Shown: piece by piece, positions 3,416-8,588 of the stretch
How the letters are laid out: each line of letters begins with the position of its first letter
Position numbering within the stretch: the stretch's first letter is position 1
Assembly: GCA_020722005.1 (NCBI GenBank)
Contig: DYLP01000024.1
Span: 1-40,063, forward strand
Reading direction: 5' to 3'
Length of the DNA: 40,063 nt
Origin: Melioribacter roseus
GTDB lineage: Bacteria > Bacteroidota > Ignavibacteria > Ignavibacteriales > Melioribacteraceae
The notes under the pieces: generated by a model
Databases searched by the model: none
Seen by the model: only the letters and a program-made list of their open reading frames with translations
What the model was told of the DNA's origin: nothing
Translations under genes and position numbers: made by a program

Positions 3416-4270
3416 TTATCCCAGATATGCTCTTAAGTTTTTACTCCTGGATGCATGTCTGAGACGGCGAATTGCCTTTTCCTTAATTTGACGGACTCTT
3501 TCACGTGTAAGATTAAACTTTTCGCCTATTTCTTCAAGAGTAAGAGAATGTTCGCCGTTTAGTCCAAAATAAAGTTTTATAACTTCAGCTTCTCTATCGG
3601 TCAATGTTGAAAGCGCTCTTTCAATTTCTTTTTTCAGAGATTCCGACATTAAGGTTTGATCGGGTGAAGGTACTTCATCATTTGGCAATACGTCGAGCAG
3701 ACTATTTTCTTCGCCTTGATTGAAAGGAGCATCCATCGATATATGTCTGCCGGCATTTTTAATAGCGTCGGCTACCTCCGTAACATCCATATTCAATTGT
3801 TCAGCCAGTTCTTCGGCGTTTGGTTCCCTTTCGAATTCCTGAACCAGGTTGCTGTATGCTTTACCAATTTTATTTAGAGCACCCACCCTATTGAGCGGAA
3901 GTCGTACAATTCTCGATTGTTCGGCAAGCGCCTGTAGAATCGATTGACGAATCCACCAGACTGCATATGAAATAAATTTAAAACCACGGGTTTCATCGAA
4001 ACGCTTGGCTGCTTTAATCAATCCCAGATTACCTTCGTTAATCAAATCACCAAGTGACAAACCTTGATTTTGATATTGCTTTGCAACCGAAACGACAAAT
4101 CGCAGATTTGCTTTGACCAGTTTTTCCAGAGCTTTCTGGTCGCCTTTTTTTATTTTAATTGCAAGTTCAATTTCTTCTTCCGGCGTAAGCAATTCAACTT
4201 TACCAATTTCTTGCAGGTATTTGTCGAGAGAAAGACTTTCACGGTTTGTAAATTGTTTTGTGATTTTCAA
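3416..4270 (-). CDS. rpoD: primary (housekeeping) RNA polymerase sigma factor
   Basis: At 284 residues this is the compact primary sigma factor typical of the Bacteroidota/Chlorobi group, lacking region 1.1 and the non-conserved insert. Region 1.2 is near residues 11-45 ([19 protein letters not shown]). Region 2 includes [19 protein letters not shown] and the -10-binding segment [16 protein letters not shown]. Region 3 follows. Region 4 carries the -35 helix-turn-helix [20 protein letters not shown]. The start is TTG, with GAGGA three bases upstream, and no in-frame ATG exists until well into region 3. It follows the BMC-P genes by 16 bases and precedes the lipoprotein gene by 7, so it lies in the middle of an operon rather than heading one. 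Confidence 0.96.
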
Positions 4271-4286: not shown

Positions 4287-4556
4287 CTATTTATCAGTAT
4301 TAATAAAATCCACAATACCTACAATCGAAGCGTCGACAGGAGCCATTTCTACATCGAGCGGAATAACGGCTTCGCTTGCGGTTACGTAAAAAATAATTTC
4401 ACCCGGACCGGCGCCCACAGTATCGAGTGCAATAATTGGACTGCTGATACTTTCAAGATTGTAGTTAACAGGTTGAACCAGTTGCATTTTATAGCCTGTA
4501 ACGGCGTCGTATTTTCTTGTTGCCCATATTGTTCCAATTACTTTACCCAGGTGCAT
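4287..4556 (-). CDS. EutN/CcmL-family microcompartment vertex protein (BMC-P), copy 1
   Basis: This 89-residue protein has the fold signature of BMC-P proteins, which form pentamers capping the vertices of bacterial microcompartment shells. It opens with the family start HLGKVIGTIWATRK and carries the loop DTVGAGPGE, ending in PVDASIVGIVDF. The usual GSSAR stretch after the loop is replaced by ASEAV, so it is more divergent than its neighbour. It starts at ATG, 11 bases after the stop of copy 2, and lies 16 bases before rpoD. No hexameric shell protein (BMC-H) or cargo enzyme signature lies nearby. It is either a satellite shell gene or a BMC-P relative used outside a shell. Confidence 0.88.
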   Translation of the reverse strand: MHLGKVIGTIWATRKYDAVTGYKMQLVQPVNYNLESISSPIIALDTVGAGPGEIIFYVTASEAVIPLDVEMAPVDASIVGIVDFINTDK

Positions 4557-4567
4557 AGAAAGAATAC

Positions 4568-4849
4568 CTACTTATTATCGCTAATTGCGACGTCAAGTTT
4601 ATCGACAATAGCCATTATAACGGCGTCGACCGGCTTGTTCTTTGTAAAAGTTGTTTGTCGTGCCGAACTGCCCTGAGCTACTAAAACAGTTTCGCCGATA
4701 CCCGCACCCACCGAATCGACAGCTATGACCGTTGACGTTTTCGGTGTTAAGTCGAGATTTAATTCACGGACAATCAGAAATTTTGCGCCCACCAGATTCT
4801 CGTCCTTTCGTGTTGACCAAACTGTTCCAATTACTTTCCCGAGTAGCAG
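4568..4849 (-). CDS. EutN/CcmL-family microcompartment vertex protein (BMC-P), copy 2, CTG start
   Basis: This is a canonical BMC-P protein of 93 residues. It contains LGKVIGTVWSTRKDENLVG, then DSVGAGIGETVLVAQGSSAR, then PVDAVIMAIVDKLD. The first in-frame GTG (4792) would remove the conserved LGKV strand that begins this family. Extending upstream, the frame stays open to a TAA. The only placement giving the normal N-terminus is CTG at 4849-4847, read as Met-Leu-Leu-Gly-Lys-Val. GGGAGG ends five bases upstream of that codon. The CTG lies two bases after the PIN gene's TAG, and the SD is inside the end of that gene, so translation is probably coupled. Confidence 0.87.
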   Translation of the reverse strand: MLLGKVIGTVWSTRKDENLVGAKFLIVRELNLDLTPKTSTVIAVDSVGAGIGETVLVAQGSSARQTTFTKNKPVDAVIMAIVDKLDVAISDNK

Positions 4850-4860
4850 AACTACCTCCC
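4847..4860 (-). promoter_or_regulatory. Shine-Dalgarno and CTG start of BMC-P copy 2
   Basis: On the minus strand GGGAGG (4860-4855) is followed by TAGTT and then CTG (4849-4847). The stop codon of the upstream PIN gene lies between them. This near-perfect SD at ideal spacing from CTG, together with the family N-terminus starting exactly there, decides the start codon. No ATG, GTG or TTG exists in frame between the upstream stop and residue 20. Confidence 0.8.
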
Positions 4861-5256
4861 TGTTTTAATTTTTGCAGCGTCTATTATTTCAATACCGGAA
4901 TTCGAATACTTTTCTATCTGTCTTGTGACCAAAGGCAATTTGTTGTTTAATGCCACAGAACAAATTAAAGCTTCGCGAACGCCCGCAACTTTATTAAAAA
5001 ATTTTGAAATGTTCAAACTATATCTTGAATTTAAGCCGAGCACTTTCAATGCCGAGAGCAGACGTTTTACAGCTTCTTCACGTGTACGATTGTATGAATT
5101 GAAAAAGAGTTCAGCCGAATTTATTACCGTAGTAAAACAGACACCTCGTTTCATTAGAATTTCCAGTATAGAATCCTCACTTGAATCGGTCTCAAGATAT
5201 TCTATCAAAATATCAGTATCGATTAAATAATGCTCTTTTTTATCATTCATGTTCAT
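4852..5256 (-). CDS. PIN-domain protein (VapC-like toxin candidate)
   Basis: This 134-residue PIN-domain protein belongs to the magnesium-dependent ribonuclease fold of VapC toxins. The first acidic motif is LIDTDILIEYLE near residues 11-22, and the second is in VINSAELFFNS. The third, normally Asp in a DAxIAATA-like block, is read here as VREALICSVAL with Glu in that place. PLVTRQIEKYSNSGIEII matches the C-terminal PIN strand. Activity may therefore be altered. Starts at 5265 (TTG), 5256 (ATG) and 5250 (ATG) are possible. I prefer 5256, about 12 bases after GGAAGG. The start overlaps the end of the upstream antitoxin-like gene by 14 bases, and the stop touches the next SD. Confidence 0.78.
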   Translation of the reverse strand: MNMNDKKEHYLIDTDILIEYLETDSSEDSILEILMKRGVCFTTVINSAELFFNSYNRTREEAVKRLLSALKVLGLNSRYSLNISKFFNKVAGVREALICSVALNNKLPLVTRQIEKYSNSGIEIIDAAKIKTGR

Positions 5257-5548
5257 ACCAAACAAATTCCTTCCCGAAATTTTCCTTTTTCAAACTTCCC
5301 TTCGCACTTAAAAAATCATAAACTGTGGAAAAAGGAATTCCCTGAATTTTTTGCACACTGTCAAAGAGCTCTTCTGAATAACCTTCGAGTATTGCAAATT
5401 TTCTTGCATCGTAAAATATTGAAATAAAAAATTCGGTTATCTTTTTATCATTAATTTGCTTAATGGCATCCTCTGGTAATGTTATCGTATTGTCTTTATT
5501 AAGTTGTGCTGGACATGAAATTATTTCCGTTAAATTATCTTTATTCAT
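5243..5548 (-). CDS. small antitoxin-like protein upstream of the PIN gene
   Basis: This is a 101-residue acidic/basic protein that I cannot assign firmly. Residues 12-32 (CPAQLNKDNTITLPEDAI) look like the strand-turn-LPEE pattern of AbrB/SpoVT-type DNA-binding antitoxins. The C-terminal half (residues 60-101) is charged, as expected for a toxin-binding tail. Position supports an antitoxin role: it precedes the PIN gene and overlaps it. Its ATG also overlaps the deoB stop within ATGAATAA, an 8-base overlap, so it is translationally coupled to deoB. If it is an antitoxin it has no visible promoter or operator of its own, which would be unusual for an autoregulated module. Confidence 0.55.
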   Translation of the reverse strand: MNKDNLTEIISCPAQLNKDNTITLPEDAIKQINDKKITEFFISIFYDARKFAILEGYSEELFDSVQKIQGIPFSTVYDFLSAKGSLKKENFGKEFVWYEHE

Positions 5549-6704
5549 ACAAAAAACTTTTTCCTTTCAAATCGTTGTTAACTTTGAAATAATGGGCTAT
5601 AGTTTGGGCAACGTCCGCAAATGTATTTCTAATTCCGAGATTGCGTGCTGTTTCATCTTTTGAATAAAAAAGTAAAGGAACAAACTCTCTGCTGTGGTCA
5701 GTACTCGGAGTAGTAGGGTCGTTTCCGTGATCGGCAGTTATCACTAATCGATCGCTGGCATCGAGTTGGTTTAAGAGCAACGGTAAAAATTCGTCGAATT
5801 CTTTCAGAGCACCTGCAAAACCATACGGATCGTTACGGTGACCATAATAGACATCAAAGTCGACCAGATTTACAAAAATAAACGAAGATTTGGCATTTGA
5901 ACTCACCTGCAGTAGCCGCTCCATTCCTTCAGAATTTGATCTGGTCTTGTACCCGGTTTTTATTCCCCTGTAATTAAACAAGTCGTTAATTTTACCAATA
6001 GCAATCGTATCGATTTTATTATAATATAAGTAATCGAGAATTGTATGCCCGAAAGGATCTAAAGAAAAATCTTTTCTATTTGTCGTTCGTGTAAATTTTC
6101 CCGGTGTACCGATAAAAGGACGAGCAATGACACGCGCAACTGCATCTTTGCCTGTCAATACATTTTTTCTTGCAATTTCGCAGATTTTATAAAGTCTATT
6201 CAAGGGTATTACTTCTTCGTGCGCTGCAATTTGAAAGACGGAATCTGCGGATGTATAAACTATCGGGAATGAAGTTCTTAAATGTTCCTCTCCTAATCTT
6301 TCGATAATCTCCGTACCCGAAGCCGGGATGTTACCGAGTACTCCTTCGACTTCAGTTTCTTCGATAAATTTATTAATAATAGATTGAGGAAACCCATCTG
6401 GATAGAGAGGAAATTCTTTGTCAATATGGAGTCCACCCAATTCCCAGTGACCTGTTGTTGAATCTTTACCGATGGATACTTCCATCATTTTGCCGAAAGA
6501 AGCTAACGGTGAATCGACCGGCTCGAGCCCTTTGATCGAAGCGATATTACCCAGACCGAGCTTCTGGAGATTGGGTAAATTTAAGCCGCCCACATATTCA
6601 GCCATGTTTGATAGAGTATTGCTGCCCTGGTCGCCATATCTTGAGGCATCTGGCAGTTCCCCGATACCTACTCCGTCTAAAACTATTACAATAAAATTTT
6701 TCAC
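5541..6704 (-). CDS. deoB: phosphopentomutase
   Basis: This 387-residue enzyme interconverts (deoxy)ribose 1-phosphate and 5-phosphate, linking nucleoside phosphorolysis to central metabolism. It is an alkaline-phosphatase-superfamily protein. Metal-binding Asp10 is in VIVLDGVGIGELPDA. The phospho-acceptor Thr is in DSTTGHWELGG (Thr84 by family alignment). Metal ligands recur in DFDVYYGHRNDPYG (H289) and ITADHGNDPTTPSTDHSREF (D325, H326, H337). Length is normal. It starts at GTG, 6 bases after the upstream GAF gene, and overlaps the next gene. No deoC, deoD or deoA lies nearby, so the rest of the pathway must be elsewhere. Its product, deoxyribose 5-phosphate, is the substrate of DeoC aldolase, which releases acetaldehyde. 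Confidence 0.96.
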   Translation of the reverse strand: MKNFIVIVLDGVGIGELPDASRYGDQGSNTLSNMAEYVGGLNLPNLQKLGLGNIASIKGLEPVDSPLASFGKMMEVSIGKDSTTGHWELGGLHIDKEFPLYPDGFPQSIINKFIEETEVEGVLGNIPASGTEIIERLGEEHLRTSFPIVYTSADSVFQIAAHEEVIPLNRLYKICEIARKNVLTGKDAVARVIARPFIGTPGKFTRTTNRKDFSLDPFGHTILDYLYYNKIDTIAIGKINDLFNYRGIKTGYKTRSNSEGMERLLQVSSNAKSSFIFVNLVDFDVYYGHRNDPYGFAGALKEFDEFLPLLLNQLDASDRLVITADHGNDPTTPSTDHSREFVPLLFYSKDETARNLGIRNTFADVAQTIAHYFKVNNDLKGKSFLYE

Positions 6705-6710
6705 AAATTG

Positions 6711-8588
6711 TCACAAACTTTTAACCGTGTTCCCTCCTTTTTCGAGGGCTTTATTGAGCGCCAACTCGGCATTTGACAATATTTCATCGACGTCCGTCTT
6801 ATTTGTTGTGGAAGCAACTCCCACCGAGATTGTAAAAGTTGTCTGTTTCGAAACTACCGATATTGGTTTACGTGCAACTTTAATACGAAGTTTCTCAGCC
6901 CAAAGGAAAACGTCTTTAGGTGCCGTATTGAAAAAGTAGACGGCAAAAACCCTTTCACTTAAACGACCTATTAAATTCATAGGCGTCATCTCATCACGGA
7001 TCATTTGGGAAATAGCCTTCAAGACTTTTGGGAATGGATTACCGTCAAAGAGCGAATCTTCTTCAATGAAATCATCGATTTTAATAAGAGCCAGAGCACC
7101 AGGCAATGCAAGTTCTTTGCTACGAACCAGATCAATCGTTAAACGTTCTATAAATGACTGATAATTTAGTACTTTGGTTTCTACATCGTGAGCAAGTAAA
7201 TTTTTCAATACGTTAATCGATGCGTGAGAATACAGGATAAAGGCAAAAATTTTAGTAGCATTCTTGACAAAAGTAACTTCACTGTTGGAATAATAATTTT
7301 TTTTGAGGCTCTCGAAACACAATACTCCGTAGTTCTGATCGTCGTAGATAAGCGGTATAGCCAAGAAAGAGCCGTCGAAGCTTACATCCTCATTCTTGTT
7401 AAATCGTGGCAGGTCGATTTGAGTAGTGTCGTCAATTTTAACCGGGATAGAACTCATAATCGATTTCCCAACCAGTGTATCCTTGAGTTCCACTTCAAGA
7501 TTTTCTCCAACGTATTTCAAAGAGGTTTTATTGACAATACGCGAAGTCTTAAATTTTTGTTCGAGTGGATTATAAAGAACAAACGTAAAGACATCCCAAT
7601 CGAGCAATTTTTCGATTGTTCTGTCGAGCATTTCAAAAATGTCTTTTTCCGATTCGAATTTTCTGTCTTTCTCCAGAATTTCAGTCAAGGCTTTAAGCCG
7701 CTGTTCGGCTTGCGATTCAGAAAATTTGTCTTCAAATAGCGATATGATAATTGAGATGACTCTAACAATTTTACCAAGAGAATAAATTTGTTCAATACCG
7801 AAAGCGTCTTTAACCTTTGCATCGAGTATGAGCAGACCAGTCAAATTTTTTCCATAAAAGAGGGGCACGCCTACAAAACTCTTAATACCCTGTGGAACAT
7901 TGTAATAACGGATAACGTCAGGTTCTGCATTAGATGAAATGTCGTTCAATAATTCAGGTTCTTCATTTTGAATTATCTTTCCTAAAATATCGTCTTCGAG
8001 ATCGAACTTTTGACGCGTTATTGCAGAAGAACTCGACACATAACGTTCGAGCGTCAGACGTTGTCGTTTTTTGTTGTACCAGAAAAATGCTGCCGTGTGA
8101 GCCCAAAAGGCGTCTTTTAATACGCTTAATATTTTTTCGAGAAGAAAACCGAATTGCTCGTCGTGGCTAACGTCTTTCGGAAGTTCTTCCAGTACAATCT
8201 TCTGAAAATTTTCTTTGAAATCGGTTGGTTTGAAAATTTCACGGTTACCTTTATTCGGGAAATAGGCATTCATATTTTCCGCTGTCAACACTTCGATATT
8301 TTTGACAGTCGACACAATCTTAAATTCCTCGCCCTCATCTGTCTGATAACCGTGTTTTGCCTCGGGCGTTTCCTCTGTTTTTGAAGAGGGAATGGGTTCA
8401 TCGTGCTTTTCGTCAACCCCTTCTCGCGTGTTATCACGAAGAAAAATTATAAATCCGATATATATTACCAGAATTAAACTGGTAATTATTCTCGTTAAAA
8501 AATCATCGGTAAGAAAAAGGATGGTTAAAAGGATGGGTATTAACATAAAAGTCAGTATTCTTTTTCTGTACTTCGACGATTTACCCAT
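6711..8588 (-). CDS. membrane protein with two GAF domains and a degenerate GGDEF domain
   Basis: This is a 625-residue predicted signalling protein at the inner membrane. Two transmembrane helices lie near residues 11-27 and 33-50. A charged linker follows, then GAF-like domains at about 145-285 (SFVGVPLFYGKNLTGLLILD) and 315-455 (FLAIPLIYDDQNYGVLCFES). The C-terminal fold at about 465-620 is GGDEF-like, ending in FTISVGVAS and a block like those preceding GGDEF C-termini. The catalytic signature is replaced by LSERVFAV at 543-550, and the usual RxxD inhibitory site is absent. It should not make cyclic di-GMP and may serve as a receptor or scaffold. It sits 6 bases upstream of deoB. Confidence 0.82.
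   Translation of the reverse strand: MGKSSKYRKRILTFMLIPILLTILFLTDDFLTRIITSLILVIYIGFIIFLRDNTREGVDEKHDEPIPSSKTEETPEAKHGYQTDEGEEFKIVSTVKNIEVLTAENMNAYFPNKGNREIFKPTDFKENFQKIVLEELPKDVSHDEQFGFLLEKILSVLKDAFWAHTAAFFWYNKKRQRLTLERYVSSSSAITRQKFDLEDDILGKIIQNEEPELLNDISSNAEPDVIRYYNVPQGIKSFVGVPLFYGKNLTGLLILDAKVKDAFGIEQIYSLGKIVRVISIIISLFEDKFSESQAEQRLKALTEILEKDRKFESEKDIFEMLDRTIEKLLDWDVFTFVLYNPLEQKFKTSRIVNKTSLKYVGENLEVELKDTLVGKSIMSSIPVKIDDTTQIDLPRFNKNEDVSFDGSFLAIPLIYDDQNYGVLCFESLKKNYYSNSEVTFVKNATKIFAFILYSHASINVLKNLLAHDVETKVLNYQSFIERLTIDLVRSKELALPGALALIKIDDFIEEDSLFDGNPFPKVLKAISQMIRDEMTPMNLIGRLSERVFAVYFFNTAPKDVFLWAEKLRIKVARKPISVVSKQTTFTISVGVASTTNKTDVDEILSNAELALNKALEKGGNTVKSL

Follow-up and report, generated by a model that had tools for sequence, protein, structure and literature searches.

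A BMC-P gene pair beside a sigma factor gene in Melioribacter roseus and a probable dispersed, FRAG-type microcompartment in Ignavibacteriales

The closest described relatives of the genes considered here are the FRAG bacterial microcompartments (BMCs) of Sutter et al. (2021), whose shell genes lie at up to six locations, include a BMC-P triplet, and are found in Ignavibacteriae (PMC8217296). In the portions of that survey that deal with these types, FRAG1-7 are grouped with loci that have an aldehyde dehydrogenase and no obvious signature enzyme, SPU loci comprise DeoC, RpiB, and aldehyde dehydrogenase, and in some HO (Haliangium ochraceum) genomes an EP-like N-terminal extension is present on a DeoC encoded elsewhere, the function of HO being called enigmatic. 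Seven BMC-P genes over five loci have already been noted in Melioribacter roseus, in a passage of PMC4207490. PduT homologues that bind an Fe-S cluster carry the motif C-P/S/A-G-K/R/S-Y/F, and electron transfer through PduS/PduT is discussed as a hypothesis in the relevant part of the same source (PMC6325248); PduS and PduT bind each other, according to a section of PMC2982820. Our literature search found no function for Ignavibacteria FRAG BMCs in the portions of text it covered, and the supplementary tables of PMC8217296 may name some enzymes.

The window analyzed here (the whole stretch of 40,063 nucleotides) is contig C76 of a 2.66-Mb, 79-contig M. roseus genome and carries two BMC-P genes, A and B, as its only shell genes. 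The dispersed set to which they probably belong resembles FRAG in its several shell-gene locations (C76, C31, and C10, scattered without a main locus, beside a separate PVM-type locus), in a BMC-P triplet in most relatives, in its occurrence in Ignavibacteriae, and in shell genes mostly remote from known enzymes; most relatives also have a scattered shell set, and most lack PduL. Whereas FRAG has no assigned signature enzyme in the parts of PMC8217296 that describe it, the shell genes here are accompanied from genome to genome by two tagged enzymes, a DeoC and an acetaldehyde-type dehydrogenase, and outside its PVM locus the source genome has only two members of the triplet. The predicted chemistry is that of SPU, in which a DeoC aldolase yields acetaldehyde and an aldehyde dehydrogenase oxidizes it (as outlined in portions of PMC8217296 and PMC4207490), and both enzyme types are present. 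SPU loci, however, are clustered and include RpiB, whereas here the genes are scattered over contigs (DeoC on C31, dehydrogenase on C22, BMC-P pair on C76). HO shares the triplet and, in some genomes, the extended DeoC, but has a main locus. The PVM/PVM-like type occurs in the source genome as a clustered locus on C57, but this is another gene cluster, with PduL and a class II aldolase, and PduL was found in just 6 of 58 genomes (source included). The pair thus belongs to a known kind; as far as the literature search shows, its linkage to cargo is the new part.

The BMC-P pair and its gene neighborhood

A and B lie in a tight run of genes on the minus strand that ends in an RpoD-type sigma factor gene:

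6711-8588, minus strand: GAF-GGDEF gene, start of the tight run
5541-6704, minus strand: deoB, phosphopentomutase (NF003766, 527 bits, cut-off 256; TIGR01696, 475 bits, cut-off 341)
5243-5548, minus strand: small ORF, upstream of and overlapping the PIN ORF
4852-5265, minus strand: PIN-domain gene between deoB and A (PF01850, 34.5 bits)
4568-4849, minus strand: BMC-P gene A, EutN/CcmL, GSSAR type (PF03319; probable CTG start at 4849-4847)
4287-4556, minus strand: BMC-P gene B, EutN/CcmL, ASEAV type (PF03319; ATG start)
3416-4270, minus strand: RpoD-type sigma factor (Pfam sigma-70 regions 1.2, 2, 3, and 4)

A first-pass annotation had described two adjacent EutN/CcmL-type BMC-P genes and had named assignment to PF03319 beforehand as a test. 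Both proteins passed it in a Pfam search, with 108.1 bits for A (ORF translated from 4846) and 90.7 bits for B (4287-4556) against a cut-off of 25. The shared start motifs, the DxVGAGxGE loops, and the GSSAR/ASEAV difference it had claimed are all present (LGKVIGTVWSTRK, DSVGAGIGE, and GSSAR in A; LGKVIGTIWATRK, DTVGAGPGE, and ASEAV in B), and B does end 16 bases before the sigma ORF. At the conserved N-terminus of A no ATG, GTG, or TTG start is available, and the CTG at 4849-4847, 5 nt 3' of GGGAGG, is probably its start codon. Across 23 loci of the order, the codon at this place is TTG in 15, ATG in 4, CTG in 3 (the source genome, G001, and G012), and GTG in 1. AlphaFold predicted the monomers of A and B poorly (pLDDT 61 and 53), which made the models unfit for a fold search, and a promoter scan was uninformative (9 found against 14.9 expected). 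The closest solved structure to A is 5v74 (E 7.3e-24), which we take to be the H. ochraceum shell.

Comparison of the rpoD neighborhoods of relatives, as the annotation had proposed, recovered the order A-B-sigma in all 29 loci of relatives, 28 of which also show deoB (in L029 there was none within the flank covered), and in 77 of 80 named loci, with deoB seen in 73; the 80 were kept out of 133 found, under names that include Melioribacter and Stygiobacter. The arrangement is therefore not a matter of chance. Sigma adjacency itself was checked in 30 loci of the order (source included) and in G030 and G054, the other pairs being placed by coordinates. Three named loci lack the sigma gene: L229, which ends 17 bases after B, L278, and L290. 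The last two, labelled Bacteroidetes and KSB1, respectively, have closely similar A-B pairs with neither sigma gene nor deoB on the stretch covered; judged from sequence, a neighbor in both looks like an rdgB-type pyrophosphatase, and another in L290 like a glutamate formiminotransferase.

A BMC-P tree of 92 rows was built on few columns; its bootstrap did not settle, and three PVM rows sit on long branches. In this tree, A forms one group of 30 orthologues (support 82/79), B another of 30 (99/92), and the third BMC-P of relatives a group of 22 rows. Because A and B fall into separate orthologous groups across the order, different roles for the two are plausible.

The sigma gene is a neighbor that is retained in pair-less relatives. 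Its product matches the NCBIfam RpoD equivalog models below their cut-offs, and since 8 of 11 genomes searched (the source genome not among them) hold two close matches to it, one of which adjoins deoB in seven genomes, the status of primary sigma factor given to it at first is unproven. In seven pair-less sigma loci (G008, G018, G034, G035, G039, G046, and G057) deoB is still the upstream neighbor of the sigma gene, with the PIN gene in two of them, so the pair is gained or lost cleanly inside a housekeeping gene string. The deoB product could supply deoxyribose-5-phosphate to the pathway proposed below; its adjacency was rejected as functional evidence, and lends that reading no support, because deoB adjoins the sigma gene in pair-less genomes as well. 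The PIN gene, present in part of the relatives only, and the small ORF that overlaps it (4852-5548) form a possible toxin-antitoxin pair.

Shell genes and tagged enzymes elsewhere

The first-pass annotation had reported no shell partners within the 40 kb. This stands for BMC-H in the window, while seven PF00936 domains and four more PF03319 genes lie on other contigs; a genome-wide search found BMC-H, BMC-T, further BMC-P, and a putative aldehyde dehydrogenase cargo, all outside the window. PF03319 occurs at six places in the source genome, the pair on C76 and four on C57, and that search found no stand-alone third BMC-P there. Of the PF00936 domains, C57 carries three, C31 a tandem pair, and C10 two within a single protein. 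C57 is the main-type, clustered PVM locus, with a class II aldolase, a PduP-like dehydrogenase, PduL, four BMC-P, three BMC-H, and an ORF that, judged by its sequence, is acetate-kinase-like. The dispersed set consists of A and B on C76, the BMC-H pair with an extended DeoC on C31, a BMC-T with a PduS-like gene on C10, and the tagged dehydrogenase on C22. Another PVM-type locus, L430 (G053:C52), has its own BMC-T and PduS-like gene, unlike that of the source genome.

Across the 58 genomes, PF03319 was found in 52 and PF00936 in 56. The commonest PF03319 count, among the matches listed, is three, corresponding to the pair plus a singleton (G002, G029, and G033 have only two matches), and the commonest PF00936 count is four domains, the BMC-H pair plus one BMC-T. 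The surroundings of each part are conserved. The BMC-H pair lies beside relA/spoT-like and ruvX-like genes in 20 of 20 loci fetched and the singleton BMC-P beside a dprA-like gene in 20 of 20 (neighbors named from sequence), and a PduS-like gene adjoins the BMC-T in 19 of 20; the 20 BMC-H/DeoC regions were picked for having both on one contig. The two-domain protein on C10 is a PduT-like BMC-T adjoining a PduS-like flavin/Fe-S protein, and CSGKY was present in the source copy and in 19 of 19 homologues read, so that both the PduT motif and a tandem pduS are found here. A core role for PduL in the dispersed set was considered and rejected because the enzyme is so rare.

In all 20 loci read, the second BMC-H of the tandem pair (L015:9790-10386; L111-L130) contains a long linker, acidic for the most part, and ends in a conserved stretch with the consensus-like sequence LNVHELRRLARSFxxFPIKGREISKANR. 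No Pfam match was found in this stretch of the source protein at 0.01; to our eye it looks Rho_N/SAP-like.

The DeoC on C31 scores as a TIGR00126 equivalog (287 bits, cut-off 117), and in most pair-bearing genomes a conserved stretch of about 60 residues extends the N-terminus of DeoC. An HMM of this extension matched 46 of 58 genomes at E ≤ 1.4e-27, each time beside a DeoC match, and its three remaining matches were weak (E 0.04-0.09). Eight genomes have DeoC without the extension, and the pair was found in none of them; the extension sequence is missing from the DeoC of G008, G018, G034, G035, G046, G053, and G057, of which G053 and G057 have an N-terminus of similar length and different sequence and G008 and G046 a shorter one. 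The hydrophobic moment of the N-terminus was not above that of shuffled sequences in two of three cases (37% and 42% of shuffles as high) and was matched by 5.9% of shuffles in the other.

The dehydrogenase of the source genome (C22:2208-3782) carries the C-terminal tag, and among NCBIfam models it scores highest with TIGR02518, acetaldehyde dehydrogenase (acetylating), at 597 bits, just below the cut-off of 620. Intact frames are 524-579 residues long. A PduP-like query led to this protein through matches of 29-31% identity; its matches of at least 40% identity were confined to G022, G035, and seven genomes that carry a PVM-type copy. A whole-protein HMM matched 47 of 58 genomes at E ≤ 1e-100, the copy in G026 being cut by the contig; the same HMM also matches a protein of 883-897 residues in G038 and G040, probably AdhE-like. 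In the tag, which resembles an encapsulation peptide, IEERLRARAGNP is followed by a variable linker and then by a last segment that might form an amphipathic helix. The hydrophobic moment of the tag was high against shuffles in two of four sequences (1.8% and 0.1%) and not above them in the other two (10% and 28%). The tag model found fragments in G019 and G021, and the only other protein that it matched convincingly was a G017 class II aldolase (E 2.7e-11). Class II aldolases near the third BMC-P were rejected as tagged cargo, since 15 of 16 aligned rows have no tag. The third BMC-P and the dehydrogenase share a contig in 16 of 33 genomes in which both places are known, at 10.7-29.9 kb in 14 of them and at 109 kb and 1.48 Mb in two.

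Co-inheritance and probable losses

The pair is present in 47 of 58 genomes (45 by coordinates among the matches listed; in the other two, G030 and G054, a contig end truncates A), and 11 were counted as lacking it. Pair and dehydrogenase occur together in 46 genomes, the pair alone in one (G021, which has the tag fragment), the dehydrogenase alone in one (G004), and neither in 10. For pair and DeoC extension, the corresponding counts over all 58 genomes are 44, 3, 2, and 9; where a DeoC-type gene was found they are 44 with both, none with the pair alone, two with the extension alone (G004 and G019), and eight with neither. The latter table omits G026, G030, and G040, which have no DeoC-type match, and G039, whose aldolases are all of other types, including a distantly DeoC-like one that lacks the extension. 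These co-occurrence tests ignore shared ancestry.

Nine of the 11 genomes without a visible pair also lack tagged cargo, with none of pair, extension, and dehydrogenase found (G008, G018, G034, G035, G039, G042, G046, G053, and G057). The pair-less state of G004, G019, and G042 may reflect assembly gaps: G019 has no sigma match, and the sole sigma locus of G004 and of G042 has no deoB beside it. Among the matches listed, two of four PF03319 matches were placed in G042 and five of six in G001. The sigma locus of G053 is cut 125 bases upstream, and its pair-less call rests on its PF03319 matches and its PVM-type locus.

Both states occur within families f1, f2, and f3 and within genus g51. On a sigma-factor tree of 38 genomes (8 pair-less), the pair state needs six changes (bootstrap 5-7), of which the strongly supported branches alone force one; several independent losses of the pair are likely. 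Other shell genes are kept without the three components in G053 (its PVM-type locus) and G035 (10 PF00936 matches). At L426 (G008:C291), a BMC-H pair sits in the usual place without BMC-P, extension, or tagged dehydrogenase, perhaps a decaying system.

A putative deoxyribose-phosphate metabolosome

We conclude, with good confidence, that A and B are probably vertex (pentamer) proteins of a dispersed FRAG-type BMC, a deoxyribose-phosphate metabolosome with SPU-like chemistry and no operon. Our confidence is high that the pair is a satellite locus of a shell encoded elsewhere, one of two readings offered by the first-pass annotation, as other contigs of the genome carry shell genes and tagged putative cargo, which accompany the pair in relatives too. 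Co-inheritance and tags suggest that DeoC and the dehydrogenase are likely the cargo of this shell. Both would be enclosed by a shell tiled with BMC-H and BMC-T, with A, B, and, in most relatives, the third BMC-P at its vertices. In this model deoxyribose-5-phosphate would enter the compartment, where the dehydrogenase would convert acetaldehyde to acetyl-CoA before it leaks, and PduS/PduT could carry off electrons from NADH, a role applied to this BMC-T by analogy. The parts may be made constitutively, as gene order, namely their placement in housekeeping gene strings, suggests.

The annotation's other reading, a shell-independent use of A and B tied to housekeeping transcription, draws on the strict adjacency to the sigma gene across the order. 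This is undercut by the seven pair-less loci in which deoB and the sigma gene remain neighbors, by the way the pair tracks tagged cargo, which is also lacking from nine of the 11 genomes without a visible pair, and by L278 and L290, where the pair stands without a sigma gene on the stretch covered, and we regard it as highly improbable. A and B might instead serve as satellite vertex genes for the clustered PVM-type compartment on C57. The same genome does hold that locus with its four BMC-P and three BMC-H genes, A groups with the third and fourth C57 BMC-P on the tree, and vertices could be shared where, as in the source genome, a stand-alone third BMC-P is missing. PduL, however, occurs in few genomes and the pair in 47, and G053 has a PVM-type locus whose four BMC-P account for all four of its PF03319 matches, with no pair; we give this explanation a small chance.

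The compartment could also be real and its main substrate something other than deoxyribose-5-phosphate, the dehydrogenase serving another source of aldehyde and DeoC being minor or outside. The G017 class II aldolase, with a tail related to the dehydrogenase tag, the score of the dehydrogenase just short of the acetaldehyde equivalog cut-off, and the DeoC N-terminus, only weakly amphipathic by the measure used, would fit such an arrangement, while the tail is lacking from the other class II aldolases near the third BMC-P and the DeoC extension is widespread. We consider this unlikely too.

On the preferred reading, that of a deoxyribose-phosphate metabolosome, we propose, with moderate confidence, that the Ignavibacteriales FRAG BMC is a constitutive housekeeping organelle for the catabolism of deoxyribose-phosphate from nucleosides and DNA that exports electrons through PduS/PduT and whose components are encoded at separate sites among sigma-factor, stringent-response, recombination, and protease genes. 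Gene neighborhoods hold few hints to the function of FRAG BMCs, which is why the 2021 description came without a signature enzyme. If true, this would give cargo to a BMC type described as enigmatic, the tagged enzymes co-inherited across the whole order being candidate cargo that provides a testable function for FRAG BMCs. It would also mean that an organelle can persist with no operon, its genes each set in a conserved string of housekeeping genes, a point relevant to the regulation and loss of such organelles.
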